Part shown: in pieces, positions 3,388 to 41,242 of the stretch
Layout of the letters: each line of letters starts with the position of its first letter
Position numbering within the stretch: position 1 is the stretch's first letter
DNA from: Pseudomonadota bacterium
GTDB taxonomy: Bacteria; Pseudomonadota; Gammaproteobacteria; Burkholderiales; Rhodocyclaceae
Length of the DNA stretch: 64,000 bases
Direction of reading: 5' to 3'
NCBI GenBank assembly: GCA_018241665.1
Contig: JAFEDK010000017.1
Span: 180,745-244,744 of the forward strand
Position numbers and translations under genes: made by a program
Notes under the pieces: model-generated
What the model was told of the DNA's origin: nothing
The model's database searches: none
What the model saw: the letters and a program-made list of their open reading frames with translations, nothing else

Positions 3388-3433
3388 CGGTGTCAGTGTC
3401 AGGAAGGGGTTGAGGCGGACCGGAGGCGGTGGA

Positions 3434-17312: not shown

Positions 17313-17370
17313 GGGAAGCTAGAACGTTCGCTGCAAGTGGTGGGTAAGAGCAGACTCCCCCGCCAAAATT

Positions 17371-17393: not shown

Positions 17394-17472
17394 TTCTTTC
17401 TTAAACGAATTTCTTTTCATATTCAGCGGCGAGTTCTGAGGATGCAGTACGTGGCAAACTGTCCGAAATCAA

Positions 17473-17823: not shown

Positions 17824-18250
17824 CAGGTAGAGAGATAGCCTGACCGAAGATTGCAAGCACAATCAGGATTAGGCTTTCAGCAGTCAAAAAGGCAAACATT
17901 GAACAGAGAAATCGTCTTCTTGTAAGTTCAATGGGCACTATCTGACCTTGAACCATGATATCCAGCTTAGGTGCTGGCTTGGGCATGGTCTTATCAATGT
18001 CTGTTTTGTTGAAGGTTGCTATTGCGGCAAGTGCTGCAATGTAGAAACCAGGTAAGCCTTGAACGAAACCAAGAATTTTAGCAATCAAAGCGCCATCAGC
18101 ATAAAAAACGATCGTTCCGAATTTTTTCAAACAGAACAAAATTCCTGTTGATAGAGTAGCCAAAACCAGAGGGTAAACCCAATCCACTACCCATTTCTGT
18201 TTGTGTTCGATGGATAGATAGGAAAGTGGTCTAAGCAAATGTCTGAACAT
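17678..18250 (-). CDS. Four-helix membrane protein, second gene of an AT-rich two-gene module
   Basis: A 190-aa integral membrane protein. Four hydrophobic stretches are clear: WVYPLVLATLSTGILFCL (about 28-45), ILGFVQGLPGFYIAALAAIA (about 60-82), FLCSMFAFLTAESLILIVLA (about 115-135) and MLIFLFAFWQMLITSFWGLF (about 158-180). The loop between helices 2 and 3 holds a polar, Lys-containing stretch (DIDKTMPKPAPKLDIMVQG). The ATG at 18250 overlaps the stop of the upstream 320-aa gene by one base (TAATG), so the two are almost certainly co-translated. GC is near 42 percent, far below the core. The arrangement of a soluble protein with a multi-helix membrane protein recalls abortive-infection pairs such as RexA/RexB, but this is only an architectural analogy. 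Confidence 0.75.
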   Translation of the reverse strand: MFRHLLRPLSYLSIEHKQKWVVDWVYPLVLATLSTGILFCLKKFGTIVFYADGALIAKILGFVQGLPGFYIAALAAIATFNKTDIDKTMPKPAPKLDIMVQGQIVPIELTRRRFLCSMFAFLTAESLILIVLAIFGQAISLPVKAIVSENFHTLTSATYMLIFLFAFWQMLITSFWGLFYLGDRLHQPDQ

Positions 18251-19212
18251 TATGCCTCCGGTACAAGTATTTCTTTCATCTTCCCAAGAATGGAATCGCA
18301 AAACTGATCATAGGATGATTTCAATTCAAATTCAAAATCGTCCAATTTCTCTTTCTTGACATAGCCCTGTGCTGAAGCTGCATCTGTATCCATTTCCACC
18401 GTTCTATCAACACCAGTAGGTGTTTTGAACTTGATACGGGCACGGCTATAGTCATCCTTCTTCTTGTTGAAGACTTTTTTCATTCGATTAAATTTATCCT
18501 TAACCGGATTGTCTTCATCCTTCAGTGTCAAAACAAGAGTTTTGCATTTCTCTTGAATGTAGCCATCTTCATCAATACTTGTGTACTTCTCTTTCTCCGA
18601 GATGAGTTCAATTGATTGGATTTTTCCGTTATCCAAGTCATGCTTCAAGCCATCAGAGATATGGCCATCAAATTGACACTTGAAGACTACACTATATTTT
18701 TTTGGTTTCCCGGCATCATCTACAGCACCATCTGGATGGTTCTGTTCAAAGTCTTGTGGGGCAAATGCCCTAGCATCACGAAGAATCTGATTGAACAATC
18801 GCTGAACCACGTACATACCAAGTCCAGTGCAATATTCAATCAGTACCAATGCTGGATTTAGTTCGTCTTGGGAAAGCTGCACAACAATGTGAACCGAAAA
18901 ATCTTGTCCTTCCTGTTCCTGCTTTTCTGCTGTACGTCTCTTCTTCTCTTTGGGAATGGTGAAAACAGGATCAGACATTCCTTTGTCCGACTTGTTCACC
19001 AGAATACTGATGGTGTCACCGTCCGACTTCCAGTCAGACACATAGAGTTGTTCGCGCCCCTTGGACATATCCTTGATGCGCTGCTCTAGGGGAACAAGCT
19101 CCATCAACTTAAGAGCTTTTCTGACAGAGATTGGCTTTGGTGCTTTGAAGGTGCGGGACTCAGCAACAATGGTGAGATCGTAGAAGAACACCAAACGCTC
19201 TGTTTTTTTCAT
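18250..19212 (-). CDS. 320-aa soluble protein, first gene of an AT-rich two-gene module
   Basis: I do not recognise a named family with confidence. The N-terminus (MKKTERLVFFYDLTIVAES) starts with a hydrophobic beta strand typical of phage-related RexA-like or DUF6731-like cytosolic proteins; residues 90-140 contain FSVHIVVQLSQDELNPALVL and a helix with LFNQILRDARAF; the middle and C-terminus are rich in Lys, Asp and Glu (DEDGYIQEKCKTLVL, KKVFNKKKDDYSRARIKF). There is no signal peptide or membrane helix. The gene is preceded by its own region at 19213 onward and drives the membrane gene that overlaps its stop. Low GC and position in an accessory island suggest recent transfer and a defence role, but function is unproven. 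Confidence 0.72.
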   Translation of the reverse strand: MKKTERLVFFYDLTIVAESRTFKAPKPISVRKALKLMELVPLEQRIKDMSKGREQLYVSDWKSDGDTISILVNKSDKGMSDPVFTIPKEKKRRTAEKQEQEGQDFSVHIVVQLSQDELNPALVLIEYCTGLGMYVVQRLFNQILRDARAFAPQDFEQNHPDGAVDDAGKPKKYSVVFKCQFDGHISDGLKHDLDNGKIQSIELISEKEKYTSIDEDGYIQEKCKTLVLTLKDEDNPVKDKFNRMKKVFNKKKDDYSRARIKFKTPTGVDRTVEMDTDAASAQGYVKKEKLDDFEFELKSSYDQFCDSILGKMKEILVPEA

Positions 19213-19621
19213 TTAATCTATCCCTTTGGAATTTTTCCTACAGCTTAAGACTTCGGCAAGGTCGTGATCAAGGTGGGTGAGTAGCTTCAGCGTTGCCTCT
19301 GCTCACGTTACACAGATCAGAAGCGTGACCTCGGCTGCGGGTGACCGCTTCTGGTCTCTGTGCTGTCGCCCCAGCGCCGATGGTTGAGTGTCTGCAAAGG
19401 CCGAGATGCCGTCGTTGACCACTCCTTCTTTATCCAAAACACATGTCTTGTGAGGATATTTCCACAACGCCCTCCCGAACGCTGTGGTGCCCTTCACACC
19501 CCCAACGGCGTCGAGTGAGGCCAAAAATCCAATTGACATGCTCTGACCCCCTATCCCAGAATCCCCTTCGCACAATTTCGTGCCAATGTCATGAATCGGC
19601 AAGCCGAGAAGGAGCGAGAGG
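19213..19621. other. Intergenic stretch between the AT-rich module and the core genome
   Basis: No convincing gene. A minus-strand frame at 19303-19602 has no ribosome-binding site and no recognisable content. The first 40 bases are AT-rich and probably hold the promoter of the 320-aa gene. A candidate plus-strand promoter for the next gene is TTGACA at 19533-19538 with CAGAAT at 19557-19562 (18-base spacing). The block 19320-19400 reads like degraded repetitive or coding remnant DNA. Confidence 0.35.
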
Positions 19622-20098
19622 ATGACCCAGAACGTGATTTCCCTGCCGCTGTCTGCGGAGCAGATCGACCTGGTCCAGAAAGCCCTGGAGGTGCTGGAGC
19701 AGCAGTTGGCGGGTTTGATTTCCCTGTCGGTGGATCAGCGGCGGGAGCTGAGCAAGATGGGGCCGAAGTCGGAGATGTTCGCGCGCAAGGCGTACGACGT
19801 GATCGCCCAGTCTCCGGAGATTCTGCCGGGGACTTTCGATCTCAAGGAATTTGGCGCGGACATCCAGGCGTTGGATCGCCTGCGTCCGGTGCTGGCCCGT
19901 CTGACCGCGCTGACTCAGCGTGGGGATGACACCGAGATGGCGCTGGGCAGCGACATCTACGCTGCGGCCTTGGAGGCTTACCGTTTTGCCAAGCTGGCGG
20001 GCAAGGGGACGGCACTGGATGAACTCCGCGCTCAGGCGTCGGCGCGTTTCAAGGGGCAGAGTCGGCGTCGCGATGAAACGGGTGCCGTTCCGGCCTGA
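19622..20098 (+). CDS. Conserved hypothetical helical protein (158 aa)
   Basis: A 158-aa, all-helical, cytoplasmic protein. AAGGAG at 19609-19614 fixes the ATG at 19622. It follows a pattern I know from uncharacterised bacterial proteins: a K-M-G-x-K-S-x-x-F-A-R-K-A segment near 50, a P-x-x-L-P-G-x-F-D-x-x-E-F segment near 70, LRPVLARLTALTQRGDDTEMALGSDIYAAALEAYRFAK near 95-130, and a basic, low-complexity tail (SRRRDETGAVPA). No enzymatic motif is visible. A block of 42-bp tandem repeats begins about 150 bases downstream, a context I have seen associated with this type of gene, though the link is not established. Confidence 0.7.
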   Translation: MTQNVISLPLSAEQIDLVQKALEVLEQQLAGLISLSVDQRRELSKMGPKSEMFARKAYDVIAQSPEILPGTFDLKEFGADIQALDRLRPVLARLTALTQRGDDTEMALGSDIYAAALEAYRFAKLAGKGTALDELRAQASARFKGQSRRRDETGAVPA

Positions 20099-20559: not shown

Positions 20560-21114
20560 CTATTTCCCAATCTCATAGCGCAGTTCCACCATGCTGGTCC
20601 CCATCTGGCGAACTGAGATCAGCCGCAGCGTGGGGCTCAGGACGCGGCGTGGGAAGATCTGTTTCCCCTTGCCGAGGGTTACGGAGCCGATCTGGATGAT
20701 GATTTCATCGAGCAGTCCGGCGTCATGAAACTGTCCCGCCAGGTCTCCGCCGCCGACGATCCAGATGTTCTTTGGCCCCGCTGCGGCGCGCATCTGATTG
20801 TGCACCTCGCGCACGTCGCCTTTGACGAAGCGGATGTCCGCAGCTTCGATGGCGGGGAGCTGGCGGGTGGTGAATACCCAGGCCGGCTGGGTGTAGGGCC
20901 AGGGTGAGCCGGTTTCGGCGGCCACCTGGTCGGCGTTGCGGAGCATCCATTCATAGGTGGAGGACCCCATGGCCAGCGCGCCGACTTCGGCAATGAAGGC
21001 GGGATAGCTGGACGCGTTCAGATCGCCAAGGGGAAACAGCCATTCCAGCGAGTCATCCTCGGTGGCAATGAAGCCATCGAGACTGGAGGCGGTGTAGTAC
21101 TGGGTCTTCGTCAT
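20560..21114 (-). CDS. Dihydrofolate reductase family (RibD C-terminal fold) protein
   Basis: A 184-aa protein of the RibD-C/DHFR superfamily, NADPH-dependent reductases that in many cases have unknown substrates. Visible motifs are the N-terminal YYTASSLDGFIA, a GALAMGSSTYEWML helix, the nucleotide-binding PKNIWIVGGGDLAGQFHDAG segment and the IIIQIGSVTLGKGKQIFP strand. The ATG at 21114 (MTKTQYY) is preferred over 21123. It stands alone, divergent from the DUF2339 gene 92 bases away. It may reduce a small aldehyde, pterin or xenobiotic; nothing local indicates which. Confidence 0.85.
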   Translation of the reverse strand: MTKTQYYTASSLDGFIATEDDSLEWLFPLGDLNASSYPAFIAEVGALAMGSSTYEWMLRNADQVAAETGSPWPYTQPAWVFTTRQLPAIEAADIRFVKGDVREVHNQMRAAAGPKNIWIVGGGDLAGQFHDAGLLDEIIIQIGSVTLGKGKQIFPRRVLSPTLRLISVRQMGTSMVELRYEIGK

Positions 21115-21205
21115 TCCGGTCACCTCTTGCCAAAGGCGTTGTGCACACGGCGAAAATTACTCCCATGTGATAATCCGGCACACCCCTCCTGCACGGAAGA
21201 TCCGC

Positions 21206-25599: not shown

Positions 25600-26784
<1,185 letters not shown>

Positions 26785-27205: not shown

Positions 27206-27757
27206 TCAGTTTCGTTCGTCGTAAAGGGGCTGGAGGCGCTCGCGCAGGTGCAGCACCGCTTGGCGCTTCCAGCCGAGCAAGGTGTTCAGGGGGACGCCGC
27301 TGTCGGCCGCCATGTCCTTGAAGCTGCGCCCGTCGATCTCGTGGCCGATGAAGGTGTCGCGCGGCCCCGGTGGTAATTCGTCGAGGGCCGCCGCGATGGC
27401 TTCCAGCCACAGCCGCCGCAGGTGCGCCGCCTCGGGCCCGCCGTCGCTGGCCGGCAGTTCGTTGTCCAGCCAGTGCGCGTCGTCGTCGTCGCCATCCTCC
27501 GGCCTGGCGAGCGGCAAGGGCTCTTCGCGCCGTTTGCGAAAGCGGTCCACGATCCGGTTGCGCGCCACCCGGAACAGCCACGCGCCGACCTGCTCGATCG
27601 GCTGCGGCAGGCGCCAGGCCTGGACCAGCTCGAAGAAGACATCCTGCAGGATGTCCTCCGCCTCGCCCGAGTCCGGCACCCGCTGACGGATGAAGCTGCC
27701 CAGCCGCCCGCTCTCGCGGGCGATGGTTTCAGTCAGGCGTCGGTCCTGCTCGGCCAT
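27206..27757 (-). CDS. ECF-type RNA polymerase sigma factor
   Basis: A 183-aa sigma-70 family factor. Region 2 is clear (EDILQDVFFELVQAW, then GAWLFRVARNRIVDRFRKRR) and region 4 has LDELPPGPRDTFIGHEIDGR followed by a helix-turn-helix (MAADSGVPLNTLLGWKRQA). The linker carries an acidic insert (EDGDDDDAHWLDNELP). The ATG at 27757 (MAEQDRRL) is preferred because 16 upstream codons look non-coding. It leads an operon with the small membrane protein and the metallophosphoesterase, so these are its likely partners or targets. Confidence 0.9.
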   Translation of the reverse strand: MAEQDRRLTETIARESGRLGSFIRQRVPDSGEAEDILQDVFFELVQAWRLPQPIEQVGAWLFRVARNRIVDRFRKRREEPLPLARPEDGDDDDAHWLDNELPASDGGPEAAHLRRLWLEAIAAALDELPPGPRDTFIGHEIDGRSFKDMAADSGVPLNTLLGWKRQAVLHLRERLQPLYDERN

Positions 27758-27997
27758 CGGCGTGGGCTCTTGGTGGGGCAGAGGAAGTGAAAACGGTGCA
27801 TCCATGCCTGGGTAGACGAACGCCAGGCGTGGATATTGTGGGTGGGTGGAAAAATAGTTGGGGCCTGCGCATGTGAAGTTTCGCCAGACTGCTTAGCAGA
27901 ACTTCGCATAAGCGCAGCCCTTTCCGCGCAAGGTTCGCCCCAGCCCCGCGCGTTATCATCAGCGCCCCTTCATGACGTTTCCGAGCTCCGCGCCATC

Positions 27998-30727
27998 ATG
28001 TCCCTGATCCCCCGTCGCCTGCCCCTGGCCGTGTTTCTTGCCGTACAGATGCTGATGCCCGCCGCGGAGGCCGCGGGGAAAACCGAGGCGGTCGTGCCGA
28101 AGGCGGAGGCCGAGGCGGGCGGGTTTGCGTCGTACCGGCTGGCCAATGGCTTCAAGATCATCCTGGCGCCGTTTCCGTCGGCGGCGAGCGTGCGGGTCGA
28201 GCTGCTGGTAAAGACCGGCAGCAAGCAGGAGGGCTATGGCGAGACCGGCATGGCGCACCTGCTGGAGCACATGCTGTTCAAGAGCGCCGGCCCGCGCGCC
28301 GACCTGAAGCGGGACCTGACCGCGCTGGGGGCGACATGGAACGGCACGACCTCCACCGACCGCACCAACTATTTCGAGGTGGTGGCCGCCGAGCCGGAGA
28401 AGGTGGACGAGGTGCTGCGCCTGGAGGCGGACCGCTTCATCCGCGCCAGCTTCACCAAGGCCCACCTGGCCAGCGAGATGACGGTGGTGCGCAACGAGCT
28501 GGAGCGCAACGACACCGATCCGGGCAGCGTGGTGATGCGCGCGCTGCAGCGCCAGTCCTATTTCTGGCACGGCTACGGGCGGCCGACCATCGGCGCGCGC
28601 AGCGACATCGAGGACGCACCCTTCGAGGCGCTGCAGGCCTTCCACCGCAAGCATTATCGGCCGGACAACGCGGCGCTGATCGTCACCGGCAACTTCGACA
28701 CGCAGCGCGTGCTGGCGCTGGCCAGCCGCCTGTTCGCCGAGGCGCGCAACCCGGCCGAGCCCAAGCCGGCCACGTGGACGCGCGAGGAGCCGCGCGCCGT
28801 CATCAACCGCAGCGAGCTGTTCCTGCCGGCCGGCACCACCATCGCCGCCAGCGGCTGGAAGCTGCCGGGCATGCGTGATCGCAGCCTGTACGCCTTCGAT
28901 CTGGGCGTCAGCGCCATCTGCGCGCAGGACTGGGGCAGCCTGCGCAAGGATCTGGTGCTGGAGCGCAAGCTGGCGGTGTCGGCCCAGTGCCGCACCCAGT
29001 TCCAGTCCGACTACAGCCTGCTGGTCGGCAGCGCCTCGGCGGGCAAGGACGCCGATGCCGAAGCCCTCGGCCGCGCGCTGCGCGAGCACCTGGAGACGGC
29101 GGCACGCCAGGGCATCAGCCAGGAACAGCTGGAGCGCGCCCGCCAGGCCGAGCTGAACGGCTACGAGCGGTTGGCCAGCAACCACGAGAGCGTAGCCAGC
29201 CTGCTGTCCCGCGCCGAGGTGGCCGGCGACTGGCGCCTGTTCTTCTGGCAGCGCGACCGGGCCCGCGACGTGACGCTGGACGAGGTGAACGCGGCGCTGC
29301 GCAAATGGGTGGTGCCGACCAACCGGGCCGACGTGCTGCTGCGCCACGGCGACCAGCCGGAAGTGCCGGCATGGACCGCCGCGCCGGCGGCGCAGGAACT
29401 GGTCGCCGGTGGCAACTGGCCGACGCTGGCCCAGGCCAGCGACCCGATGCCCGCCAGTGCGGTGGAACTCGCCAAGGCCAGCGTGACGGTGCCGCTGCCC
29501 GGCGAGACGGCCAGGGCCGTGCTGATCCCGCGCAAGACCCAGGGGGCGCTGGCCTGGATCAGCCTCAACAACGACTACGGCAACACCCAGGCCTTCACCG
29601 GCCGCCGCGTGGCCTGCAACTTCGGCAGCAGCCTGCTGGCTTACGGTGGCGCGGGCCTCGACCGGGACCAGCTCGACGCGAAGCTCGAAGCCCTGCAGGC
29701 CCAGTGGTCCCTGAGCCTTGGCGAGATCACGCTGGAAGTGCCGTGCAAGAACGCCGAGGCCGCGCTGGATATCCTGCTGGCGGTGTGGGCCAAGCCGAGC
29801 CTGCCGCAGAACGAATTCGAGCGCATGAAGGCGGCGTCCATCGCCCGCCTCGAGGCCGCGCTGAAGGACCCGGCCGCCGTGGCGTCCAGCCAGGCCGCGC
29901 TGCGCTTCGACAACTACCCGGACGAGCATCCCAACCAGCCCTGGTCGCTGGAGCGCCAGCTGGCCGCGGTGCGGTCCGCCACCTACGAGCAGGCCCGCCA
30001 GTGCGTCGCCGACCTGCACGGCATCGGCCGGCTGCGCCTGGCGGCGGTGGGCGATTTCACGCCGGCCGACGTGCAGGGCCTGTGGGGCAAGGTTGCGCAG
30101 CTGCCGAAATCCCCGGTGCCCTATGAACGCATCCGCGAGGAGGCCGCGCCGGCCGCCGTCGACACGGCGCCCATCGTGGTGAGCATGCCGGCCAAGCCGA
30201 ACGCCTCGGTGGTCGGCCAGGCCCTGCTGCCGATCACCGACGATTCGCCGGATTTTCCGGCCCTGCGCATTGCCGCCAAGGTGCTCGGCGGCGATGCCGA
30301 CAGCCGCATCTGGCAGCGTCTGCGCGAGAAGGAAGGCCTGGCCTACGGGGCCGGCGTCAGCCTCGCCGGGCGCAGCTTCGACCCGCGCAGCAGCTTCCGG
30401 CTGCAGGCCTCGGCGGCCAGCACGCAGGCGGAGGCCGCGCGGGCCAGCCTGCAGGCCGAACTGGCCCGCGCCCTGAAGGACGGTTTCAGCGAACAGGAAG
30501 TGGAGCGCGCCAAGCGCACCTGGCTGGAGGAGCGCAAGACCGGGCTGCGCAACGAGAAGGGCTTTGTCGGCGTGCTCTCCGCCGGCCTGGAAAACGGCCA
30601 CGACTACGCGTGGATCGCCCAGTACGACGCGCAGATTTCCCGCCTCAGCGCCGCCGACGTGACCGCGGTGTTCCGCAAGTATCTGCAGGGCGCGCCGCTG
30701 GTGTGGTCGGTCGGCCGCGGCGAGTAG
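27998..30727 (+). CDS. M16 family zinc metallopeptidase, periplasmic, two M16 halves
   Basis: A 909-aa insulinase/pitrilysin-type peptidase. The ATG at 27998 gives a signal peptide (LPLAVFLAVQMLMPAAEAAG). The first half has the inverted zinc motif HLLEHMLF with the downstream glutamate in VVRNELERND. The second half (from about residue 480) has the M16 fold but no zinc motif, as in two-domain M16 proteins. The closing part contains LREKEGLAYGAGVSLAG. It stands alone and divergent from the sigma operon. It probably degrades small peptides in the periplasm. Confidence 0.92.
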   Translation: MSLIPRRLPLAVFLAVQMLMPAAEAAGKTEAVVPKAEAEAGGFASYRLANGFKIILAPFPSAASVRVELLVKTGSKQEGYGETGMAHLLEHMLFKSAGPRADLKRDLTALGATWNGTTSTDRTNYFEVVAAEPEKVDEVLRLEADRFIRASFTKAHLASEMTVVRNELERNDTDPGSVVMRALQRQSYFWHGYGRPTIGARSDIEDAPFEALQAFHRKHYRPDNAALIVTGNFDTQRVLALASRLFAEARNPAEPKPATWTREEPRAVINRSELFLPAGTTIAASGWKLPGMRDRSLYAFDLGVSAICAQDWGSLRKDLVLERKLAVSAQCRTQFQSDYSLLVGSASAGKDADAEALGRALREHLETAARQGISQEQLERARQAELNGYERLASNHESVASLLSRAEVAGDWRLFFWQRDRARDVTLDEVNAALRKWVVPTNRADVLLRHGDQPEVPAWTAAPAAQELVAGGNWPTLAQASDPMPASAVELAKASVTVPLPGETARAVLIPRKTQGALAWISLNNDYGNTQAFTGRRVACNFGSSLLAYGGAGLDRDQLDAKLEALQAQWSLSLGEITLEVPCKNAEAALDILLAVWAKPSLPQNEFERMKAASIARLEAALKDPAAVASSQAALRFDNYPDEHPNQPWSLERQLAAVRSATYEQARQCVADLHGIGRLRLAAVGDFTPADVQGLWGKVAQLPKSPVPYERIREEAAPAAVDTAPIVVSMPAKPNASVVGQALLPITDDSPDFPALRIAAKVLGGDADSRIWQRLREKEGLAYGAGVSLAGRSFDPRSSFRLQASAASTQAEAARASLQAELARALKDGFSEQEVERAKRTWLEERKTGLRNEKGFVGVLSAGLENGHDYAWIAQYDAQISRLSAADVTAVFRKYLQGAPLVWSVGRGE

Positions 30728-30753
30728 GCGCGCCGTCGCCAAAGCCGTTGAAT

Positions 30754-30820
30754 GTAGGGGCGAATTCATTCGCCCGCGGACTCCGTTCCTGCGACCCAGG
30801 GCGAATGAATTCGCCCCTAC
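30754..30820. repeat. REP-like element, paired hairpins
   Basis: Two arms of 22 bp (30754-30775 and 30799-30820) are exact inverted copies around a 23-base spacer. Each arm also folds on itself around GGGCGAATTCATTCGCCC. The same unit recurs at 52681-52767, so it is a dispersed genomic repeat of the REP/BIME type. It lies between the M16 peptidase and gshA, which converge, and could also end transcription in both directions. Confidence 0.88.
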
Positions 30821-30832: not shown

Positions 30833-32407
30833 CTAGGTGTGGATGGCGCTCAGATAGTGCGCCATGTAGTCCTCGAAGCTGCCTTGTTGCTCCGCTTCCA
30901 GCCTGGCCTGGGCGGCCAGGGAGTCGCTGGCGGCCTGTTCGAAGCGGGCTTCCGCGTCGGCGTCCAGCGGGTGCTGGCGGAACCATTCGGCGTGGCGCTC
31001 GGCCTGGCGGCAGCCGAAGGCGAACAGGCTGATCTTGTCGTCCTGCAGGCTCTTCAGCACCTGGGCGGAGGGCGTCAGCGATACGTCCTCCAGCTTGGCC
31101 CGCTGGGCGTCCAGCGCGCGGCGGTGCTGGTCGTGGCCGAAGGCGGCGTCGAGCCGGTCGGCACAGGCGCCGATGCGCTCCAGCAGTTCCAGCCCCCATT
31201 CCTTGAGGCCGATCGGCTTGCCGTGGCGCTTCAACTGCAGGCCCGGCTTGCGGCCTTCATTGACGCTGCGCGCGAAGTTGCCGGTGCATTCGCCGCATTC
31301 GCCGGAGATCAGGCCGGGGCCGTCCTCCAGCGCGCAGAACAGCAGGAAGGCGTCGAGGAAGCGCGTTTCGGTGAGGTCGATGCCCAGCGGCAGGAAGGGG
31401 TTGAGGTCCAGGCAGCGGACTTCGACGTACTGCACGCCGCGGGCGCCCAGCGCCTGCAACGGCCGCTCGCCGCTGTTGATCACGCGCTTGGGGCGGATCG
31501 TCGAGTAGTACTCGTTCTCGATCTGCAGCACGTTGGTGTTGAGCTGCACCCACTCGCCGTCCCGCTGCGTGCCGACCGCCGCGTAGGGGGCGTAAGGCGT
31601 GCTCACGGCGCGGCGCAGGCTGTCCAGGTAGCTGTCCAGGCTGTCGTAGCAGGGCGTCAGGCTGGCCTGGGCCTCGCTCTGGTAGCCCAGGTCACTCATG
31701 CGCAGGCTGGTCGCCCACGGCAGGTACAGGGTTTCGGCGTCCAGCGTGTCGAGGCGGTGCGGTTGGCCGCGGAAGAAGCTGGCGCCCACCGCCGGCGAGG
31801 CGCCGAACAGGTAGGGCAGCAGCCAGCTGTAGCGGCGGAAGTTGCGGATCAGCGCGATGTAACAGGCCGATTGCCAGTCCTGCGCCGGGCGCGTGTCGCC
31901 TTCCTCCTGCTGCAGCAGCGGCCACAGGGCCTCGGGCAGCGAGAAGTTGTAGTGGATGCCGGCGATGCACTGCATCGTCTTGCCGTAGCGCACTGCCAGG
32001 CCCTTGCGATAGACGTGCTTGAGGCGGCCGACGTGGCTGCGGCCGTAGTCGGCGATCGGGATGGTGGCTTCGTCCGGCAGCCGGCACGGCATCGAGTTGG
32101 GCCACAGGGTCTCGGTGCCGAGGTGGGCCTGGACGAAGCGGTGGATGGCGTCCAGCTCGTCCAGCGTGTCGGCGGCGTCCTCGCGGGCGTCGGTGATGAA
32201 CTCCAGCAGCGCTTCGGAGTAGTCGGTGGTGATCTGGGTGTGGGTCAGCGCCGAGCCGAGGGCCGGCGGGTGGGGCGTCAGGGCCAGGTCGCCGGCGGGA
32301 TCGACGCGCAGGCTCTCCCGCTCCACGCCGTGTCGGCAGTGACGCAGCAGGGCGTGCCGGTCGGCACGGTCGAAGAGGGCCAGGCGGCGCAGCAGGGGAT
32401 CGCTCAA
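30833..32407 (-). CDS. gshA: Glutamate-cysteine ligase, proteobacterial type
   Basis: This enzyme makes gamma-glutamylcysteine, the first step of glutathione synthesis. The family signature runs through the protein: [41 protein letters not shown], the PYLFGASPA segment, [25 protein letters not shown] and CALEDGPGL. The start is read as TTG at 32407 (giving SDPLLRRL and 524 aa, close to the E. coli enzyme), with AGGA upstream; the frame is open to 32542 but the extra residues look non-coding. It follows the pterin-like operon on the same strand after 153 bases and may be a separate unit. Confidence 0.93.
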
Positions 32408-32560
32408 GGGTCGGATTCCTAGGGGCAGATTCAGTCGGGGCAGAGGCGGTTGCCGGCAGTCGGCGGCCGCGTCGCGACGGATGGGGCGAGAGCCCCATCC
32501 TCCAGTATTGGGCGGCATTATGACGGAAGCCGACCCATGCACGACTATTGTGCGTATCCC

Positions 32561-33445
32561 TTAGAGCGGGAGATGCGGCGGAAGTGCCAGCAGATCCAGA
32601 TGGCCGACCTCCAGGGCCAGCAGGCCGCCGTCCAGCTGGGCCTGGCGCTCGGTGGCCCAGCTGGTAATCCACCGTTCAGCGGCCGGGTCGGCCGCGCGGG
32701 CGACCGCGGCGGCCTCGTCGAGCAGGTAGCGCAGCATGTCCGGCTGGCTCGCCCCGATGCGCCAGTCGCTGCGCGCCGTCGTCACCCGATGGCCGTGGCT
32801 GGCGAGGCAGGCGGCCAGATGGGCGACGGCTTCGTTAGCCAGGGATGGCCCAAAGCCCTTGTCGACGCCCTGATGGCGCTGGAAGCCGGCCAGCACCGGG
32901 GCGTCGGCGGGGTGTGGCGGGTGCCAGGCCCGGCGGCCGTCCACCGTCAGCGTGGCGAGCAGGGGCCGCCGCAGGCGGGCCAGCAGCTTGCCGAGGCGGT
33001 CCAGCCAGGTGGCCGAGACCAGGTCCAGGAAGGCGGTGGTGACCAGGCCGTCGAAGGGAATCCGTTCGAGCGCCTCGAGCTCGCTGGCCAGGTCGAGGCC
33101 TTGCCCGCGTACCGTCCAGCGGGCAAGGCCGGTATCCACGGCGATGTGCTCGCCATCCGCCGTCCAGCGCCAGCCATGGCGGGTGGCCCAGTCCACGATC
33201 TCGGCACGCTGGGCGGTCAGCAGCGCCGGGTCGTGGTCCACCAGCAGCCAGTTTTGATCGCCGCCCAGCAGCGGGGCCAGGACCCGGAAATTGGCGCCGC
33301 TGCCGGCGGCCAGGTCGACGATGCGCAGCGGCCCCGCGGCCTGCCTGCGCAGCGCGGCAGCCAGGCCGTGGGCAAGGGCGGGGCTGCGTGCCTGCCGGTC
33401 GATGGGTTCGCGCAGGCGCAGCCAGTCGGCGGAAAACCCGGTCAT
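32561..33445 (-). CDS. Class I SAM-dependent methyltransferase, last gene of the pterin-like operon
   Basis: A 294-aa methyltransferase. Motif I (VDLAAGSGANFRVLAPLLGG near residue 43) and an acidic loop in LLVDHDPALL mark the Rossmann SAM site; LVTTAFLDLVSATWLDRL is the post-motif region. No close functional relative is recognised. The start overlaps the stop of the glycosyltransferase (ATGA), so it is part of the seven-gene operon that begins at ribA. In that context it probably methylates the pathway intermediate, or a linked sugar. Confidence 0.82.
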   Translation of the reverse strand: MTGFSADWLRLREPIDRQARSPALAHGLAAALRRQAAGPLRIVDLAAGSGANFRVLAPLLGGDQNWLLVDHDPALLTAQRAEIVDWATRHGWRWTADGEHIAVDTGLARWTVRGQGLDLASELEALERIPFDGLVTTAFLDLVSATWLDRLGKLLARLRRPLLATLTVDGRRAWHPPHPADAPVLAGFQRHQGVDKGFGPSLANEAVAHLAACLASHGHRVTTARSDWRIGASQPDMLRYLLDEAAAVARAADPAAERWITSWATERQAQLDGGLLALEVGHLDLLALPPHLPL

Positions 33446-34491
33446 GCGGCCACCTGGTCCAGGGCCGCCGCCCAGCGGTCGATGGCCTGGTCCCAGTCGG
33501 GCAGGACTGCGGCGGCGCCGCGAGCACCGGCGGCCCGGCGGCTGCGCAGCGCGGCGTCGGACAGCAGCTGTTGCAGCGCGCCGCGCAGGGCCGCCACGTC
33601 GCCGGGCGGGACGAGCAGGGCGGCGTCGGCCGGCACCGTGTCTGGAATGGCGCCGGCGGTGGTGGCGACGATGGGCAGGCCGTGGGCCAGGGCTTCGGTG
33701 AACACCATGCCGTAGCCTTCATGGAAGGACGGCAGCGCGAAGAGGTCGGCGTGGCGGTAGGCCTCGGCCAGGCGCTCGGCGGGCTGCTCGCCAAGCAGCG
33801 CGACCCGTTCCTCGAGCCCGTGGGCGGTGATGGCGGCGCGCAGCGCATTGACGCTGCCGGGGGCCCGTTCCAGGCTGCCGATGCAGGTGAGGTGCCAGTC
33901 CAGTTCGCGCAGGCCGGCCAGCGCGTCGATCAGCAGGCGATGGCCCTTGCGCGGGGTGAGCGTGCCGACGGTGAGGATGTCCAGTGTGGCTTTTGCGCGG
34001 CGTGGGCTGCTGGAGGCTGGCTTGGCGGTGCCGGGTGGCGCGATGGCCACGCGTCCGGTGGCCAGCCCGGCGGCGAGCAGATGGCGGGCGGTGTGCGGGC
34101 TGGGGCAGATCGCGCCGCGCAGCCGGGGCCACAGGTCCGCTTCCAAGGTGGCGTAGCGGGCCGCGTCGGCCGGGCCGAGGCCGGTTTCGAGGGACAGGGG
34201 GTGATGGATGAAGCCGACCAGGCGCAGGCGCGCGGCTTCGGCGGTCAGGCACGGGGCGAAGGCCGGTAGCGCCAGGCCGTCGATCACCGCGATGGTGCCG
34301 TCCGGCAGGCTGGCCAGCGCGGCGGTGGCGGCCTGCCGGGCGTGCTCGTCGGCCTCCGGATGGCGGCCTGCCAGTTCCACGAGCTGAACCTGGTGGCCAC
34401 GGGCGCGCAGGCCGTGCACCACCTGCCGGTCGTAGAGATAACCACCGGTGAGCTGATCCAGCGCGCCGGGCACCAGGAAGGCCAGTTCCAT
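33442..34491 (-). CDS. GT4 family glycosyltransferase in the pterin-like operon
   Basis: A 349-aa GT-B fold glycosyltransferase. The N-terminal half has GGYLYDRQVVHGLRARGH; the C-terminal nucleotide-sugar domain has LTVGTLTPRKGHRLLIDAL, and the donor-binding ADLFALPSFHEGYGMVFTEALAHGLPIVAT with the EX7E-type glutamates. Start and stop overlap its neighbours by one and four bases. It may glycosylate the product of the pterin-like pathway; no polysaccharide genes lie nearby other than the OpgH-like gene. Confidence 0.87.
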   Translation of the reverse strand: MELAFLVPGALDQLTGGYLYDRQVVHGLRARGHQVQLVELAGRHPEADEHARQAATAALASLPDGTIAVIDGLALPAFAPCLTAEAARLRLVGFIHHPLSLETGLGPADAARYATLEADLWPRLRGAICPSPHTARHLLAAGLATGRVAIAPPGTAKPASSSPRRAKATLDILTVGTLTPRKGHRLLIDALAGLRELDWHLTCIGSLERAPGSVNALRAAITAHGLEERVALLGEQPAERLAEAYRHADLFALPSFHEGYGMVFTEALAHGLPIVATTAGAIPDTVPADAALLVPPGDVAALRGALQQLLSDAALRSRRAAGARGAAAVLPDWDQAIDRWAAALDQVAA

Positions 34492-34895
34492 CAGCGCAGG
34501 CTGCCCTCGAAGCTGGCCCAGGCGACCGGCGATTCGCGCAGCACCACGCGCAGGGATTCCAGCGCGTCGGCGGTGCCCAGCCCGATGTCACCGGCCGCCA
34601 CGCGGGTCTTGAGGCGCTGGAAGATCACGCCGGCCATCACCTCGGTGGTGGTGTTCTGGCCGTGCAGCTCGGGCAGGGTGTCGAGGTTCTTGAAATTGAA
34701 TTCGCCCAGCACTTCCTTGAGGACTTGCAGGGCCAGGCCGATGTCGCAGACCAGGCCGTTGGCGTCCAGCTCGCGGCGGCGGAATTCGACCTCCACGCCG
34801 TAGGTGGCGCCGTGCAGCTGCTGGGCCGGGCCGAAGATTTCGCCGCGGAAGCTGTGGGCGATCATGATGTGGTCGGATACGGCAAGGCTGTACAT
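34491..34895 (-). CDS. PTPS/QueD-like protein with altered active site
   Basis: A 134-aa protein of the 6-pyruvoyl-tetrahydropterin synthase/6-carboxytetrahydropterin synthase fold (T-fold). The ATG at 34895 (MYSLAVSDHIMIAHSF) is preferred, as the longer reading is Pro/Cys-rich noise. In canonical enzymes a Cys and an H-G-H-N-Y motif supply the catalytic nucleophile and zinc ligands. Here the stretch is GPAQQLHGATYGVEVEF: the second histidine is replaced by alanine and the cysteine is missing. The first His (IAHSF) and the C-terminal T-T-T-E-V glutamate are kept. It is therefore a divergent subfamily, probably with a different reaction. It shares an operon with GTP cyclohydrolase II and a RibD-type reductase. 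Confidence 0.82.
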   Translation of the reverse strand: MYSLAVSDHIMIAHSFRGEIFGPAQQLHGATYGVEVEFRRRELDANGLVCDIGLALQVLKEVLGEFNFKNLDTLPELHGQNTTTEVMAGVIFQRLKTRVAAGDIGLGTADALESLRVVLRESPVAWASFEGSLR

Positions 34896-34926
34896 GGGGC
34901 GGACTCCGGGCTTTGGGTAGACGTGT

Positions 34927-35899
<973 letters not shown>

Positions 35900-35907
<8 letters not shown>

Positions 35908-36700
35908 GGAAGTCGCACTCGATCATCACGTCCTCGCCGAGGATGAAGCGCCGCGTGCGCGGGCGCAGGCTGTGGCACAGGTCGGTGATCTCGGGCAGCA
36001 CGATGCTCGGCCGGCCGGAGCCGAGGATCACCGGCGCCACGGTGATCTGCAGGCGGTCCAGCGCGCCGGCGGCGAGGAAGCGCGACACCGTGACGCCGCC
36101 GCCCTCGATGAACAGCCAGGCCAGCCCGCGCCGGTGCAACGCGTCGCGGATCGCGTGGGGATCGAGGCCGTGGGCGCCGCGGGGAATCGGGATCACCTCG
36201 GCCTGGCCGCGCCGTTCGCCGGGGAGGGCCAGGTCGTCGGCGACGAGGAGCAGGGTCGGCGCCGCGCCGTCGCGGAAGACGCGCTGGCTGCCGTCGAGCC
36301 GTCCGTCCGGGTCGATCACCACGCGGACCGGGTTGCGCCCGGCGCACAGGCGCACCGTCAGCTGCGGGTCGTCGTGCAGTACGGTGTTGGCGCCCACCAG
36401 CACGGCGTCGGCGATGGCGCGCATACGGTGGGTGTGGAGCAGGTCCTCGCCGCCGCTGAGCCAGCGGGAGATGCCGCTGGTGGTGGCGATGCGGCCGTCC
36501 AGGCTCTGGGCCAGGTGGCCGACGGCATATGCGCCGCGGGCGCGGGCGGCGAGCAGCGGCTGGTACAAGGCCTGCAGCGGGCAGCCGGCGTGGGGCGGCG
36601 GGGCGTCGTCGCGGCGCTCGAGCAAGGCCTGCCAGCGGGCTTCGTCCGTCGGTGGCACTGGGTTGGCGGCCACCGCGGCGCTTGTGACGGCCGGGTTCAT
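35900..36700 (-). CDS. RibD C-terminal-type reductase, without deaminase domain
   Basis: A 266-aa protein with the RibD C-terminal (DHFR-like) reductase fold: [67 protein letters not shown], and [19 protein letters not shown]. Normal RibD carries an N-terminal deaminase with H-A-E and PCxxxxxxPC zinc motifs; these are absent and the first 55 residues are unrelated. It would reduce a ribosylamino-pyrimidine such as the product made by GTP cyclohydrolase II, encoded upstream. The ATG at 36700 overlaps the OpgH-like stop (ATGA), and the stop overlaps the dehydrogenase start. Confidence 0.86.
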
Positions 36701-38481
36701 TCGGCCTTGCCAGTGCTTGCCACGGCCAGGCGTGGCGCCGGGGCGAACGGCGTGAACAGGGCCGCGAACCCCGGTTCGGCATGGGGGCGGGCTTCTTCCG
36801 GCACGCGGCACAGGCCCGCCGCGGCCAGCAGTCGGCCGACCCGTGGGTGGGCGCTGAGCATGGCCAGCGGGATCGCGCCGGCGAGGCCGAGGACGAAAGG
36901 TGCCCACAGCCAGACGGCGCCCGGCGCGGCGCGCCAGAACAGCACCGCGAAGGCCGCGCCCAGCAGGGTCTGTGGCCACAGCCGGCGGGCGGCCAGCCGC
37001 AAGGGCACGCCTTCCGCGTCCCGGTGCTGGGCGGTCCACCCCACCTGGCGCCCGAAGGGCAGGCCGAGCAGGAACAGCGTCACCGCGACGGCGGAGACCG
37101 GCGCCAGCAGCATCGAGAAGAGGGTTTCCAGCACCGCGCTGGCCACGACGCGGACACTGCCGCCGTAGGCCTGGCGCAAGGCCGGCCGGGCCAGCACGTC
37201 AGCGAGGGTGGCGAGCTTGGGCGCGAAGCTCATGCCCATCGTCAGTGCGAACAGCACGCCGCCGAGATCCGGGTGCATCGGCAGCTGGCGGGCGAGGCCC
37301 AGCGCGACGAGGCCGAGCCAGGCCGGCGCGCCGGCATACATCGCGATGGCGAGGCCCAGCTGGCAGCGGCTCACCGGCAGCAGGCGCGGCATGCGCAGGA
37401 AGTGGAAATACTGCATGTTGCCCTGGCACCAGCGCAGGTCGCGGCGGACGAACTCGGGCAGGGTCGGCGGATTCTCTTCCCAGCTGCCGGCCTCGTCGGG
37501 CAGCACCCGTACTTCGTAGCCGGCGCGGCGCATCAGCACTGCTTCGAGCTGGTCGTGGCTCAGTACGTCGCCGCCCAGCGGCGGCTGGCCGGGTAGTACC
37601 GGCAGGTGGCAGTGCTCGGTGAAGGGCGCCACGCGGAGGATCGCGTTATGCCCCCAGTAGGGGCCGCAGTCGCCCTGCCAGCTTGCCGCGCCGAGGGTGT
37701 ACGAACGCATGCCGAGGCGCATGCCGAACTGGAAGATGCGGGCGAAGGCGCTGGTGCTCGGCAGGCCGGTGACCAGGGTCTGCAGGATGCCGATCTGCGG
37801 TTGCACCTGCATGATCCGCACGAGGCGCAGCATGGCCGCCGGCGTCATCACGCTGTCGGCGTCGAGGACGATGGCGAATTCGTGCCGGTTCCCCCAGCGT
37901 TCGCAGAAGTCGCGGATGTTGCCGGCCTTGAAGCCGCGGCCCTGCTCGCGGCGACGGTAGGTGACGGCGACATCGGCACCGAAGCGGGCGGACAGGCGGG
38001 CGGCTACGGCCTGCTCGTCGGCGATGATCGCCGCGTCGTTGCTGTCGCTGAGCATGTAGAGGTGGAACCAGCGCCCTTCGCCGGTGGCGGCCAGGCCGCC
38101 GAGCATCAGTTCCAGGTTGCGTTCCAGGCGCTGGGCGTCCTCGTTGCGGATGCAGATCAGCAGCGCGGTGGCGCTGGCAATCGGTTCCTTGCCGGTGATG
38201 CTGCGCAGGTGCGGCGCCACCAGGCCGGCCGGATCCCGCGTGAAGTGCATCAGTGCGAAGCCGATCGCCGCGTTCCAGAAGCCGATCGTGGTCCATGGCA
38301 GGGTCAGCGCGAACAGCAGCAGCATGGCGATGCCGAGGGCGTCCGGCGGGCCGACGAACAGCGTCGCCGCCATCAGCCCCAGCAGGGCGGCGGAGGTGCC
38401 GAGCACCAGCGCGGCGAAGCCGAGGCGGCGTCGGCGCAAGCGCGTGCGTGGGTCGGTGGCGGGGGTAGAGGGGTTTCTCAT
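36697..38481 (-). CDS. OpgH/MdoH-like inner-membrane glucosyltransferase
   Basis: A 594-aa GT2 glycosyltransferase of the glucans-biosynthesis OpgH family. It has N-terminal membrane helices (about 20-75), a cytoplasmic GT-A domain with ALLICIRNEDAQRLERNL, the acidic VLDADSVMTPAAML and GGDVLSHDQLEAVLMRRAG, the R-R-D-L-R-W-C-Q-G-N acceptor motif, and about six further helices. E. coli OpgH is about 250 residues longer at the ends. No opgG gene is present. It sits inside the pterin-like operon, with its stop overlapping the RibD-like start, which is an odd context for a periplasmic-glucan enzyme. Confidence 0.88.
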   Translation of the reverse strand: MRNPSTPATDPRTRLRRRRLGFAALVLGTSAALLGLMAATLFVGPPDALGIAMLLLFALTLPWTTIGFWNAAIGFALMHFTRDPAGLVAPHLRSITGKEPIASATALLICIRNEDAQRLERNLELMLGGLAATGEGRWFHLYMLSDSNDAAIIADEQAVAARLSARFGADVAVTYRRREQGRGFKAGNIRDFCERWGNRHEFAIVLDADSVMTPAAMLRLVRIMQVQPQIGILQTLVTGLPSTSAFARIFQFGMRLGMRSYTLGAASWQGDCGPYWGHNAILRVAPFTEHCHLPVLPGQPPLGGDVLSHDQLEAVLMRRAGYEVRVLPDEAGSWEENPPTLPEFVRRDLRWCQGNMQYFHFLRMPRLLPVSRCQLGLAIAMYAGAPAWLGLVALGLARQLPMHPDLGGVLFALTMGMSFAPKLATLADVLARPALRQAYGGSVRVVASAVLETLFSMLLAPVSAVAVTLFLLGLPFGRQVGWTAQHRDAEGVPLRLAARRLWPQTLLGAAFAVLFWRAAPGAVWLWAPFVLGLAGAIPLAMLSAHPRVGRLLAAAGLCRVPEEARPHAEPGFAALFTPFAPAPRLAVASTGKAE

Positions 38482-38498
38482 CGCAAGCCCGGCTGGCC

Positions 38499-39167
38499 CT
38501 AGCTGGCTTTCCGCGCATCCGGCGCGGCCCATTCGCGGGCGTCCGGCAGGTCGTGGCCCATGCGCTGCCGCTTGGTCTTGAGGTAGCCGATGGAATGCGT
38601 GTTGGGCTGGGTGATGACCGGCAGGCAGCTGTCGACCCGGATACCGAGGGCAGTCAGCTTGCTCAGCTTGTCGGGGTTGTTGGTCATCAGGCGGATGCTG
38701 GGCACCTTGAAATAGGCCAGCATCTCCGGCACCACCTCGTAGCTGCGCGCGTCATCGGGCAGGCCCAGCATGCGGTTGGCGTCCACCGTGTCGTAGCCCC
38801 GCGATTGCAGGTGATAGGCGCGCACCTTGTTGGCGAGGCCGATGCCGCGGCCCTCCTGGCGGAGGTACAGCACGATGCCGGCGCCGCGGCGGACGATTTC
38901 GGACAAGGCCAGATCGAGCTGGTCCCGGCAGTCGCACTTGAGGGAGCCGAAGACTTCGCCGGTCAGGCATTCGGAATGGACCCGCACCGGTAGCCCGGCG
39001 ACGCCTTCGACCTGGCCATGGACCAGCGCCACGTGCTCGTGGAAGCCCTGTTCCGGATCGGACGCCGGACTGCGGAACACGTGCATTGCAAATGGGCCGT
39101 AGGACGTCGGCAGGACGGTGGACGCCAGCCAGTTCGAATGGCGCGATGGCACTGGTGAAGCAGACAT
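38499..39167 (-). CDS. ribA: GTP cyclohydrolase II
   Basis: GTP cyclohydrolase II opens the imidazole ring of GTP to give 2,5-diamino-6-ribosylamino-pyrimidinone phosphate, formate and pyrophosphate. The zinc-binding region (VHSECLTGEVFGSLKCDCR) and the catalytic RQEGRGIGLANKVRAY motif are intact. The 222-aa length fits; the ATG at 39167 (MSASPVP) is preferred over an extension to 39221. No ribB domain is fused. It is the first gene of the seven-gene operon, 17 bases ahead of the OpgH-like gene, so it could feed a dedicated pathway rather than, or as well as, riboflavin. Confidence 0.94.
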   Translation of the reverse strand: MSASPVPSRHSNWLASTVLPTSYGPFAMHVFRSPASDPEQGFHEHVALVHGQVEGVAGLPVRVHSECLTGEVFGSLKCDCRDQLDLALSEIVRRGAGIVLYLRQEGRGIGLANKVRAYHLQSRGYDTVDANRMLGLPDDARSYEVVPEMLAYFKVPSIRLMTNNPDKLSKLTALGIRVDSCLPVITQPNTHSIGYLKTKRQRMGHDLPDAREWAAPDARKAS

Positions 39168-39651: not shown

Positions 39652-40587
39652 TCAATTCGCCGGCGGGGGTGTGTCCGAGTTCTTCATTTCGGCGCGCATG
39701 AAGTCCACGAAGGCGCGCACGCGGGCCGACAGGTGGCGGTTGTGCGGATAGAGGATGGAGAAGCGCCGTGTGCGCCCGCCGAAATCCTGCAGCACCTCGA
39801 CCAGTTCGCCATGCCGAACCAGTGGGTCGGCGATGAAACGGTAAGTCTGGAACAGCCCGCCGCCGGCCTGGGCCCAGCTGATGCAGCCCAGCGCGTCGTC
39901 GAGCACGCGCAGGCGGCTGTGGAACGTCAGATCGATGTCCTTGCCGTCCGGGCCGCTGAAGATCCACGGCATCGGTCGGCCGGTGCTGGGCAGGATGAAC
40001 TGGATGCAGTCGTGTTGCGCCAGCTCGTCCAGGGTCTGCGGCACGCCGCGCCGCGCCAGGTAGCCCGGCGTGGCGTAGATGCCCACCGGGGCGTCCTCCA
40101 GCGGGTGGGCGATCAGCCGCGAATCTGGCGGGATGCCGAGGCGGATGGCCAGGTCGAAGCCCTCCTCGACGAAATCGATGACCCGGTTGGACAGGCTCAG
40201 CTCCAGCTCGATCTGCGGGTAGGCGGCGGTGAAGCGGGGCAGCAGCGGCAGCACGCGGAAGTTGGCGTACAGCGTGCCGATGCTGATGCGCAGCAGGCCG
40301 CTGGGTACCTTCTGGTGGCCGGTGATGGCCCGCTCGGCTTCGGCGATCTGCTCCAGTGCGCGCTGGCATTCCTGCTGGTACAGCGCGCCCTCGGCGGTCA
40401 GGCGCACGCTGCGCGTGGTGCGCGAGAATAGGCGCACGCCGAGGCGCTCTTCCAGGCGCTTGATCGAGCGGCTCACCGAGGCTGGCGTGAGGCCGAGGGT
40501 TTCCGCCGCCGCCGTGAAGCTGCCCAGCTCGGCCGCCTTGCAGAACAACTCGATGCTGTTGAGCTGGACCGGATCGAAGGTACGCAC
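39652..40587 (-). CDS. LysR-family transcriptional regulator
   Basis: A regulator of 311 aa if it starts at the GTG at 40587 (VRTFDPVQLNSIELF). The winged HTH is clear: FCKAAELGSFTAAAETLGLTPASVSRSIKRLEERLGVRLFSRTTRSVRLT. The C-terminal effector-binding domain belongs to the common CrgA-like subgroup (PSGLLRISIGTLYANFRVLP, FVEEGFDLAIRLG). The start is uncertain because no ribosome-binding site is visible and the frame is open to 40749. It is divergent from the SRPBCC gene, its probable target. Confidence 0.88.
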   Translation of the reverse strand: MRTFDPVQLNSIELFCKAAELGSFTAAAETLGLTPASVSRSIKRLEERLGVRLFSRTTRSVRLTAEGALYQQECQRALEQIAEAERAITGHQKVPSGLLRISIGTLYANFRVLPLLPRFTAAYPQIELELSLSNRVIDFVEEGFDLAIRLGIPPDSRLIAHPLEDAPVGIYATPGYLARRGVPQTLDELAQHDCIQFILPSTGRPMPWIFSGPDGKDIDLTFHSRLRVLDDALGCISWAQAGGGLFQTYRFIADPLVRHGELVEVLQDFGGRTRRFSILYPHNRHLSARVRAFVDFMRAEMKNSDTPPPAN

Positions 40588-40726
40588 GATTTGTTCTGCG
40601 ATGTAATGGATGAAGTGATGTGGGAGCGATTTATCCGCGAAAAGTGCCGCAATACAGTGCGCTGCGTTGGCGGTGTCCCATCGGGATGGTCCGCCGCGGA
40701 ACTTCACCACAGGACGAACACAGCCC

Positions 40727-41242
40727 ATGAGCGACATCATCTGGCCCACGGCCTATCTGCCCGGCACCACCGACAACTATGTTTCCAACGAGATCATCGT
40801 GCCCGACCTGACCGCCGCGCAGGTGTGGCCGCAGCTCAACGAGCCCTTGCGCTGGCCCGGCTACTACGGCAACGCGGCGGACATCGCCTTTTACGACGGC
40901 GCCGGCCCCGAGCTGGGCCCCGGCGTGCGCTTCCGCTTCACCACGTTTGGCTTCCCGGTCGAGGCCGAGGTCGTCGAGTACCAGCCGCCGGCGGCCGGCC
41001 AGCCGGCCCGGGTGGCCTGGCACGGCTGGGTCGAGGGCGACGCCGAGGCGCGCCTCGACGTGCATCACGCCTGGCTGTTCGAGGACCTGCCCGGCGGCCG
41101 TGTGCGGATCCTGACCCAGGAAACCCAGATCGGCGCGCCGGCCCGCCAGCTGGCGGCGACCAGGCCGAACCCGATGCTCAACGCGCATCAGGAATGGATC
41201 GAAGGCCTGGCGCACAGCGCTCGTCAAGCCGTCGCCGAATAA
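40727..41242 (+). CDS. SRPBCC-fold ligand-binding protein
   Basis: A 171-aa protein of the START/Bet v 1-like SRPBCC superfamily, which binds hydrophobic ligands. The pattern of an N-terminal strand (YVSNEIIVPDLTAAQVWPQL), a W-P-x-Y-Y loop, a GVRFRFTTFGFPVEAEVVEYQPP strand pair and a long C-terminal helix (NAHQEWIEGLAHSARQAV) fits well. ATG at 40727. No ligand or enzyme activity can be assigned. It is divergently transcribed from the LysR gene and followed directly by a terminator shared with the transporter gene. Confidence 0.78.
   Translation: MSDIIWPTAYLPGTTDNYVSNEIIVPDLTAAQVWPQLNEPLRWPGYYGNAADIAFYDGAGPELGPGVRFRFTTFGFPVEAEVVEYQPPAAGQPARVAWHGWVEGDAEARLDVHHAWLFEDLPGGRVRILTQETQIGAPARQLAATRPNPMLNAHQEWIEGLAHSARQAVAE

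Follow-up and report, generated by a model that had tools for sequence, protein, structure and literature searches.

The window analysed here, a stretch of 64,000 nucleotides from a Zoogloea genome rated 99.95% complete (contig JAFEDK010000017.1, positions 180,745 to 244,744), carries on its minus strand a seven-gene operon (39167-32561) that appears to be the Zoogloea version of a widespread, patchy and sometimes plasmid-borne biosynthetic cluster, the SCO6650/PTPS-IV cluster, whose product would be derived from guanosine triphosphate (GTP), glycosylated, methylated and probably bound to the envelope. We place the probability of this reading at about 0.5. The core genes are inherited together and syntenic across phyla, and they come in addition to ribA, ribD-type and queD genes elsewhere in the genome.

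The genes run, in 5′ to 3′ order, ribA, an OpgH-like family 2 glycosyltransferase (GT2), a RibD-type reductase (RibD), a dehydrogenase (DH), a PTPS-like protein (PTPS), a family 4 glycosyltransferase (GT4) and a methyltransferase (MT), with no internal stops. Adjacent genes are separated by 17 bases (ribA-GT2) or 31 bases (DH-PTPS, the largest gap in the operon), or overlap by 4 (GT2-RibD), 8 (RibD-DH), 1 (PTPS-GT4) and 4 bases (GT4-MT), the RibD frame starting with the ATG at 36700. These coordinates agree with an earlier reading of the window from its letters alone (the sequence-only reading), which had described seven same-strand genes with overlaps of 1-8 bases and a largest gap of about 31 bases. 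Its family calls for ribA, the OpgH-like GT2, a RibD without deaminase, the PTPS-like protein and GT4 are matched by Pfam and NCBIfam, and its methyltransferase was recovered by fold.

Conservation of the core genes

Among 60 related genomes, the window's own included, strong matches to DH (64-100% identity) were found in six (G000, G011, G016, G018, G027 and G047), with another 20 genomes reaching at most 37 bits. MT occurs in the same six genomes, and PTPS in seven, namely these six plus one with a 23.5-bit match. Within the genus, 4 of 23 genomes carry DH, PTPS and MT, a patchy accessory pattern; the closest named relative among the matches listed is Zoogloea sp. LCSB751, whose DH is 93% identical.

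A scan of named species genomes yielded at least 592 candidate stretches, at least 572 of them encoding a DH relative, and the best 80 were kept. Our own profiles were applied to 84 distinct loci, of which 69 had enough flank for counts. The loci range over Streptomyces and other Actinomycetota and many families of Pseudomonadota. Among the flanked loci, PTPS was present in 66, GT4 in 65, MT in 61, RibD in 49 and RibA in 41, and DH, PTPS and GT4 stood together at 65. Where PTPS was missing from the flank, at three loci, the gene lies elsewhere in the genome, with GT4 and MT adjacent in two cases. Frequent additional genes encode a CDP-alcohol phosphotransferase (PF01066; 52 loci), a PF03706 membrane protein (39) and a creatininase (38); rarer neighbours are YceI (14), a weakly sulfatase-like protein with a match below cut-off (13) and cytochrome b561 (7). 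Moreover, the order of the core is shared across several classes, in distant genomes and on plasmids. PTPS matched 21 plasmid records, 16 of them typed as non-mobilizable, and the core was present in all four of the plasmid records examined, where PTPS is annotated as 6-carboxytetrahydropterin synthase (queuosine) and DH as a zinc-binding alcohol dehydrogenase. Given this co-occurrence in the 60 genomes and synteny among the loci, the gene set is not a chance assembly, and the sequence-only reading's expectations of joint occurrence and conserved order were both borne out.

Three further observations concern the compared loci. Cytochrome b561 lies near the cluster in L038, L051-L054, L056, L071, L078, L093, L133 and L134, and YceI near others, a possible redox link. 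A stand-alone phosphoribosyl-AMP cyclohydrolase is encoded near the cluster on the Peteryoungia plasmid (L134, 15350-15916). One open reading frame (ORF) family of these loci is probably antisense to the MT gene.

A PTPS-IV protein without the canonical PTPS motif

The PTPS-like protein (34491..34895, 134 aa) matches PF01242 at 83 bits. In an alignment of 40 sequences, F21, G22, P23 and A24 of its FGPAQ motif are invariant and Q25 is conserved in at least 90%, placing it in the PTPS-IV subfamily of COG0720. The AGeNNT paper (2017, PMC5445326) gives FGPAQ as the signature of PTPS-IV, which forms there a cluster node of 561 sequences whose gene neighbourhoods include PF00925 and PF01872. Both of these neighbours are present in the operon of the window. 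Furthermore, the PTPS-IV profile matches SCO6650 (PDB 3d7j) with an E-value of 2e-70, and the predicted structure of the Zoogloea protein (predicted local distance difference test (pLDDT) 94.2) superposes on 3d7j with a template modelling (TM) score of 0.92 at 54% identity.

Canonical PTPS and QueD proteins carry the motifs CxxxHGH, or CxxxxxHGH and ExxHGH, according to PMC5041015. In the 40-sequence alignment, the second histidine of HGH is replaced by alanine (HGA is invariant), as is the cysteine, whereas H14, H28 and E121 are invariant. Aligned to the genome's own QueD, a separate protein with CxxxHGH on contig 54, the operon protein has no counterpart for the Asp-His pair. A canonical PTPS or QueD identity was rejected on these three grounds, and the pterin chemistry that the sequence-only reading had assigned to this protein is accordingly unlikely. 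SCO6650 reportedly binds no zinc and has no PTPS activity, but is said, in the 2008 paper on it, to possess a pterin-type pocket; Glu121 presumably anchors the ring. Because the PTPS motif residues are replaced while E121 is invariant, and in view of that pocket, PTPS-IV is likely to bind the ring and would be unlikely to perform the canonical reaction.

The GTP-opening enzyme, the reductase and the creatininase of relatives

RibA (38499..39167, 222 aa) matches PF00925 at 194 bits and keeps the residues expected of a GTP cyclohydrolase II (GCH II), namely all three zinc cysteines and the tyrosine of KxRAY. The genome contains three further PF00925 regions, on contigs 54, 10 and 18: the copy on contig 54 is a canonical RibA, and that on contig 10 (L003) is a RibBA with a degenerate GCH II domain from which the usual cysteine motif is gone. 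The reductase (35900..36700, 266 aa) matches PF01872 at 132 bits; PF01872 was the only Pfam domain found, with no deaminase domain, so that the protein is not a bifunctional RibD. Against solved structures it scored 113 bits with 6p8c, 86 bits with 2azn and 69 bits with the best bifunctional RibD, and its closest kin may be the stand-alone diaminopyrimidine reductases of the ArfC/RIB7 type (6p8c, 2azn), but its NCBIfam matches lie below the cut-offs. A second, longer RibD_C protein (414-aa frame) is encoded on contig 22. Since the genome has other ribA, ribD-type and queD copies, housekeeping may fall to those rather than to the operon RibA, reductase and PTPS; the additional ribA that the sequence-only reading had proposed to look for thus exists. 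Within the window itself, about 12 kb from the operon, another stand-alone RibD_C-type match (20560-21123, minus strand) scores 60 bits over the second half of the profile.

The three zinc cysteines are retained in 45 of 46 RibA rows, the exception being half of a split RibA in L118, a Vreelandella cluster in which the gene is broken into two frames (13618-14786). The scored tyrosine, which we take to be the equivalent of the catalytic Tyr105 of E. coli, is conserved in 24 rows; RibD occurs at the locus in every one of these, and creatininase in 18. At the same position, 19 rows have methionine and two have histidine; all 21 have creatininase and five have RibD. A Met-type Streptomyces enzyme is said to halt at the formyl intermediate. 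The creatininase of relatives belongs to PF02633, with MftE as its best NCBIfam model (122 bits, cut-off 172) and ArfB at 27 bits, all below cut-off; no creatininase was detected at the Zoogloea operon locus with our own profiles. In PMC9478397, the creatininase-family formamidase BrbF is demonstrated to complete the GCH II reaction. Judging by these residues, a formamidase seems to be retained by those relatives whose RibA is altered, whereas the Zoogloea RibA should not need one.

Dehydrogenase, GT4 and methyltransferase

DH (34927..35907, 326 aa) is of the alcohol dehydrogenase type; its best named model, the bacteriochlorophyllide dehydrogenase BchC, reached 55 bits, far under the 291-bit cut-off. 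At what we take to be the site of the usual N-terminal zinc-cysteine motif, all 86 rows (two of them duplicates) read S-R-G-T-E, in agreement with the sequence-only description of a dehydrogenase without zinc cysteines, and by this motif DH is not predicted to be a zinc-dependent alcohol dehydrogenase. GT4 (33442..34491, 349 aa) matches its Pfam/NCBIfam family at 110 bits. For MT (32561..33445, 294 aa), neither Pfam nor NCBIfam gave a match at E 0.001; the structure predicted for it (pLDDT 96.7) resembles many class I S-adenosylmethionine (SAM)-dependent methyltransferases (best E 4.9e-11, TM about 0.5), the class to which we assign it by modelled fold.

An OpgH-like glycosyltransferase in place of another membrane module

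The operon GT2 (36697..38481, 594 aa) is a membrane glycosyltransferase of the MdoH/OpgH type, with NCBIfam PRK05454 models scoring up to 690 bits, and is the sole OpgH match in the genome. No opgG (PF04349) was found in the Zoogloea genome, whereas the E. coli control was positive; an ordinary osmoregulated periplasmic glucan (OPG) locus was rejected on this basis. An OpgH-like gene lies just upstream of the core in 11 of the 69 loci, the window included. The CDP-alcohol phosphotransferase, PF03706 protein and creatininase each occur at none of these 11 loci, compared with 52, 39 and 38 of the other 58, and RibD is present at 10 of the 11. Single-protein searches without a positive control found no match in the genome to a CDP-alcohol phosphotransferase or creatininase of the L039 type.

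In the DH tree, 10 of the 11 OpgH-type loci fall in one group of 12 beta-proteobacterial rows (96/79), with the eleventh, Thiocapsa, outside. OpgH without CDP-alcohol phosphotransferase is also found in Kiloniellales L064 and on the Methylosinus plasmid L132, where a resistance-nodulation-division (RND) efflux system (1-5528) adjoins the MdoH-type cluster. The OpgH proteins of the cluster form their own clade (98/97). Seven Halomonadaceae OpgH proteins, six of them encoded at loci with an opgG-family ORF, fall outside it. The OpgH-like GT2 is a lineage-specific part of the cluster. It and the alternative module, CDP-alcohol phosphotransferase with PF03706 protein, both come from membrane-facing families, a hint that the inner membrane is where the product is delivered or the barrier that it crosses.

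A candidate pathway and its alternatives

We infer the chemistry of the pathway from the protein families. RibA would open GTP to yield 2,5-diamino-6-ribosylamino-pyrimidinone 5′-phosphate, and the stand-alone reductase would produce the ribityl form before any deamination, in the archaeal and fungal order. PTPS-IV would bind the 2-amino-4-oxo ring via its conserved glutamate and help to rebuild the ring or hold it in place, with no zinc-lyase chemistry involved; the BchC-like enzyme may oxidise or reduce a side-chain alcohol or ketone. GT4 would add a sugar and MT a cap, and the OpgH-like GT2, taking the place of the CDP-alcohol phosphotransferase and PF03706 membrane protein of relatives, may extend the product, move it through the inner membrane, or both. 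On the strength of these six steps, the product is probably a heterocycle made from GTP, glycosylated and associated with the envelope. The logic of the sequence-only reading, in which a GTP-derived ring is reduced, glycosylated and methylated, is plausible on this account, with GTP ring opening as the first step.

Several findings weigh against the SCO6650/PTPS-IV reading. The loci were picked by DH similarity, and gene frequencies among them are thus not unbiased; RibA is absent from 28 of the 69 and RibD from 20. RibA is found at three of the 11 OpgH-type loci, all three Zoogloea, and is absent from eight, so that in sister lineages it would be supplied elsewhere or be dispensable. Furthermore, the exclusion between OpgH and CDP-alcohol phosphotransferase rests on few lineages, the 12-row group (96/79) is not fully supported, five of the 69 loci carry neither gene, and Kiloniellales L064 combines OpgH with creatininase. 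Nor does the creatininase simply serve to deformylate the product of a defective RibA, because 18 of the 24 Tyr-type rows have it too, and we rejected the proposal that it is required only where RibA has lost the tyrosine. It scores best with MftE and poorly with ArfB, and the correlation between RibA residue and creatininase is confounded by phylogeny, since the Met and His rows are all Actinomycetota. What holds of the seven-gene unit proposed by the sequence-only reading is a dedicated gene set; the full complement does not, the OpgH-like GT2 being lineage-specific and RibA missing from many loci.

A true pterin-glycoside pathway, in which the PTPS-like protein acts on the pterin side chain as for cyanobacterial or Chlorobium biopterin glycosides, would account for a PTPS fold with an invariant, presumably ring-anchoring Glu121 and for the GT4 in the operon. 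Both pterin glycosides and a glycosyltransferase acting on pteridines have been described (PMC13259868). The cyanopterin and Chlorobium systems resemble our proposal in glycosylating a GTP-derived ring, but there the ring is biopterin. Biopterin is made through GTP cyclohydrolase I (GCH I), whereas the operon begins with GCH II; the cysteine and second histidine of HGH are replaced; and reduction by the RibD-type enzyme would trap the compound as its open ribityl form, from which no neopterin arises. We consider this pathway unlikely. Periplasmic glucan synthesis by the OpgH-like enzyme, with the other six genes decorating the glucan, seems more doubtful still: it would suit a genome with a single OpgH and no opgG, and a cluster clade separate from the opgG-linked OpgH of Halomonas, but most loci, Streptomyces included, have the core without any OpgH, so that glucan is not the general product.

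RibA and RibD_C are riboflavin-type enzymes, and PMC5041015 (Zallot et al.) connects PTPS-IV, citing unpublished work, with archaeal F420. The operon ribA and reductase could then merely boost 5-amino-6-ribitylaminouracil for riboflavin or F420. We give this supply branch little credence, as GT4, MT and DH accompany PTPS at nearly every locus and RibA is often missing. An F420 pathway was rejected because CofH (FO synthase) had no match in the genome in a search that was positive in three archaeal controls among 11. Finally, the seven genes might be unrelated passengers, adjacent by accident, as the irregular presence of RibA and OpgH could hint. The identical phyletic pattern of DH, PTPS and MT led us to reject this explanation, which, given also a core order shared by several classes and plasmids, is hardly credible.

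Returning to the SCO6650/PTPS-IV reading, we also entertain, tentatively and well short of conviction, a broader form of it: a widespread, hitherto unrecognised class of cofactor-like glycosides, periplasmic or anchored in the membrane, built from a GCH II pyrimidine instead of a GCH I pterin, with two interchangeable finishing modules (CDP-alcohol phosphotransferase plus PF03706, or the OpgH-like GT2), possibly acting in redox with cytochrome b561 and YceI, in which PTPS-IV would be a T-fold enzyme lacking the PTPS zinc site and performing new chemistry.

Relation to described systems

The SCO6650/PTPS-IV cluster shares with the operon its PTPS subfamily and, according to PMC5445326, the PF00925 and PF01872 neighbours. 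The Streptomyces loci examined, among which that of S. coelicolor was not included, have DH-PTPS-GT4 as here, and MT where the contig is long enough. They differ in carrying the CDP-alcohol phosphotransferase, PF03706, creatininase and a Met-type RibA, with RibD in a minority, whereas the window has OpgH, RibD and a Tyr-type RibA but lacks the CDP-alcohol phosphotransferase, PF03706 and creatininase. The early riboflavin steps of archaeal ArfA, ArfB and ArfC and bacterial BrbF have a possible parallel in the operon reductase, which among solved structures scores highest with diaminopyrimidine reductases, and the creatininase of cluster relatives would correspond to BrbF as described in PMC9478397. 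Unlike those systems, the operon has GCH II instead of ArfA and no creatininase at its locus, and the creatininase of relatives is nearer to MftE than to ArfB. OpgGH (MdoGH) glucan synthesis has the OpgH-type GT2 in common with the operon; the window's genome, however, has no opgG, and the cluster OpgH belongs to a separate clade and stands in an operon with pyrimidine enzymes. The toxoflavin cluster, like the operon, combines GCH II, a RibD-type reductase and a methyltransferase; to our knowledge, it includes no PTPS, glycosyltransferase or BchC-like dehydrogenase.

Genomic surroundings

The gene gshA (glutamate-cysteine ligase; 30833-32542, minus strand) begins 18 bases past MT, and lies downstream in L035 too; being on the same strand at this distance, it may be reached by the operon transcript. 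The LysR gene upstream of the operon (39652-40749) has no counterpart in loci L035-L039, and a scan 5′ of ribA found no sigma-70-type promoter. GC content at third codon positions, 0.865-0.948 in the operon versus 0.911-0.928 in three flanking genes, does not point to recent transfer. Elsewhere in the window, an ORF at 27959-30769 (minus strand, 936 aa) is antisense to an M16 peptidase, a sigma-70 region 2 (ECF-like) protein is encoded at 27206-27805 (minus strand) and a calcineurin-like phosphoesterase at 25600-26784 (minus strand). Positions 16001-20000 have a GC content of 48-52%, against mostly 55-74% elsewhere, and contain two unverified ORFs without a Pfam match.

Implications

The gene set is real, conserved and uncharacterised, and the OpgH-bearing variant of the window was not found described. 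The claim of an undescribed pathway in the sequence-only reading survives in part: no paper characterising the product of the PTPS-IV cluster was found in the open-licence PMC literature, outside which most subscription papers lie, yet PTPS-IV with its PF00925/PF01872 neighbourhood had been reported (PMC5445326) and the SCO6650 structure solved. That structure (3d7j), of a relative of the operon PTPS, has been public since 2008 as that of an uncharacterised protein. With at least 572 stretches encoding a DH relative and the core together at 65 of 69 loci, the cluster may be present in hundreds of genomes, including those of Streptomyces. Our comparison defines the core genes, predicts in which relatives a formamidase would be required, and identifies two alternative modules for finishing the product, both pointing to the envelope. 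With these defined, the product can now be sought using a compact seven-gene operon.

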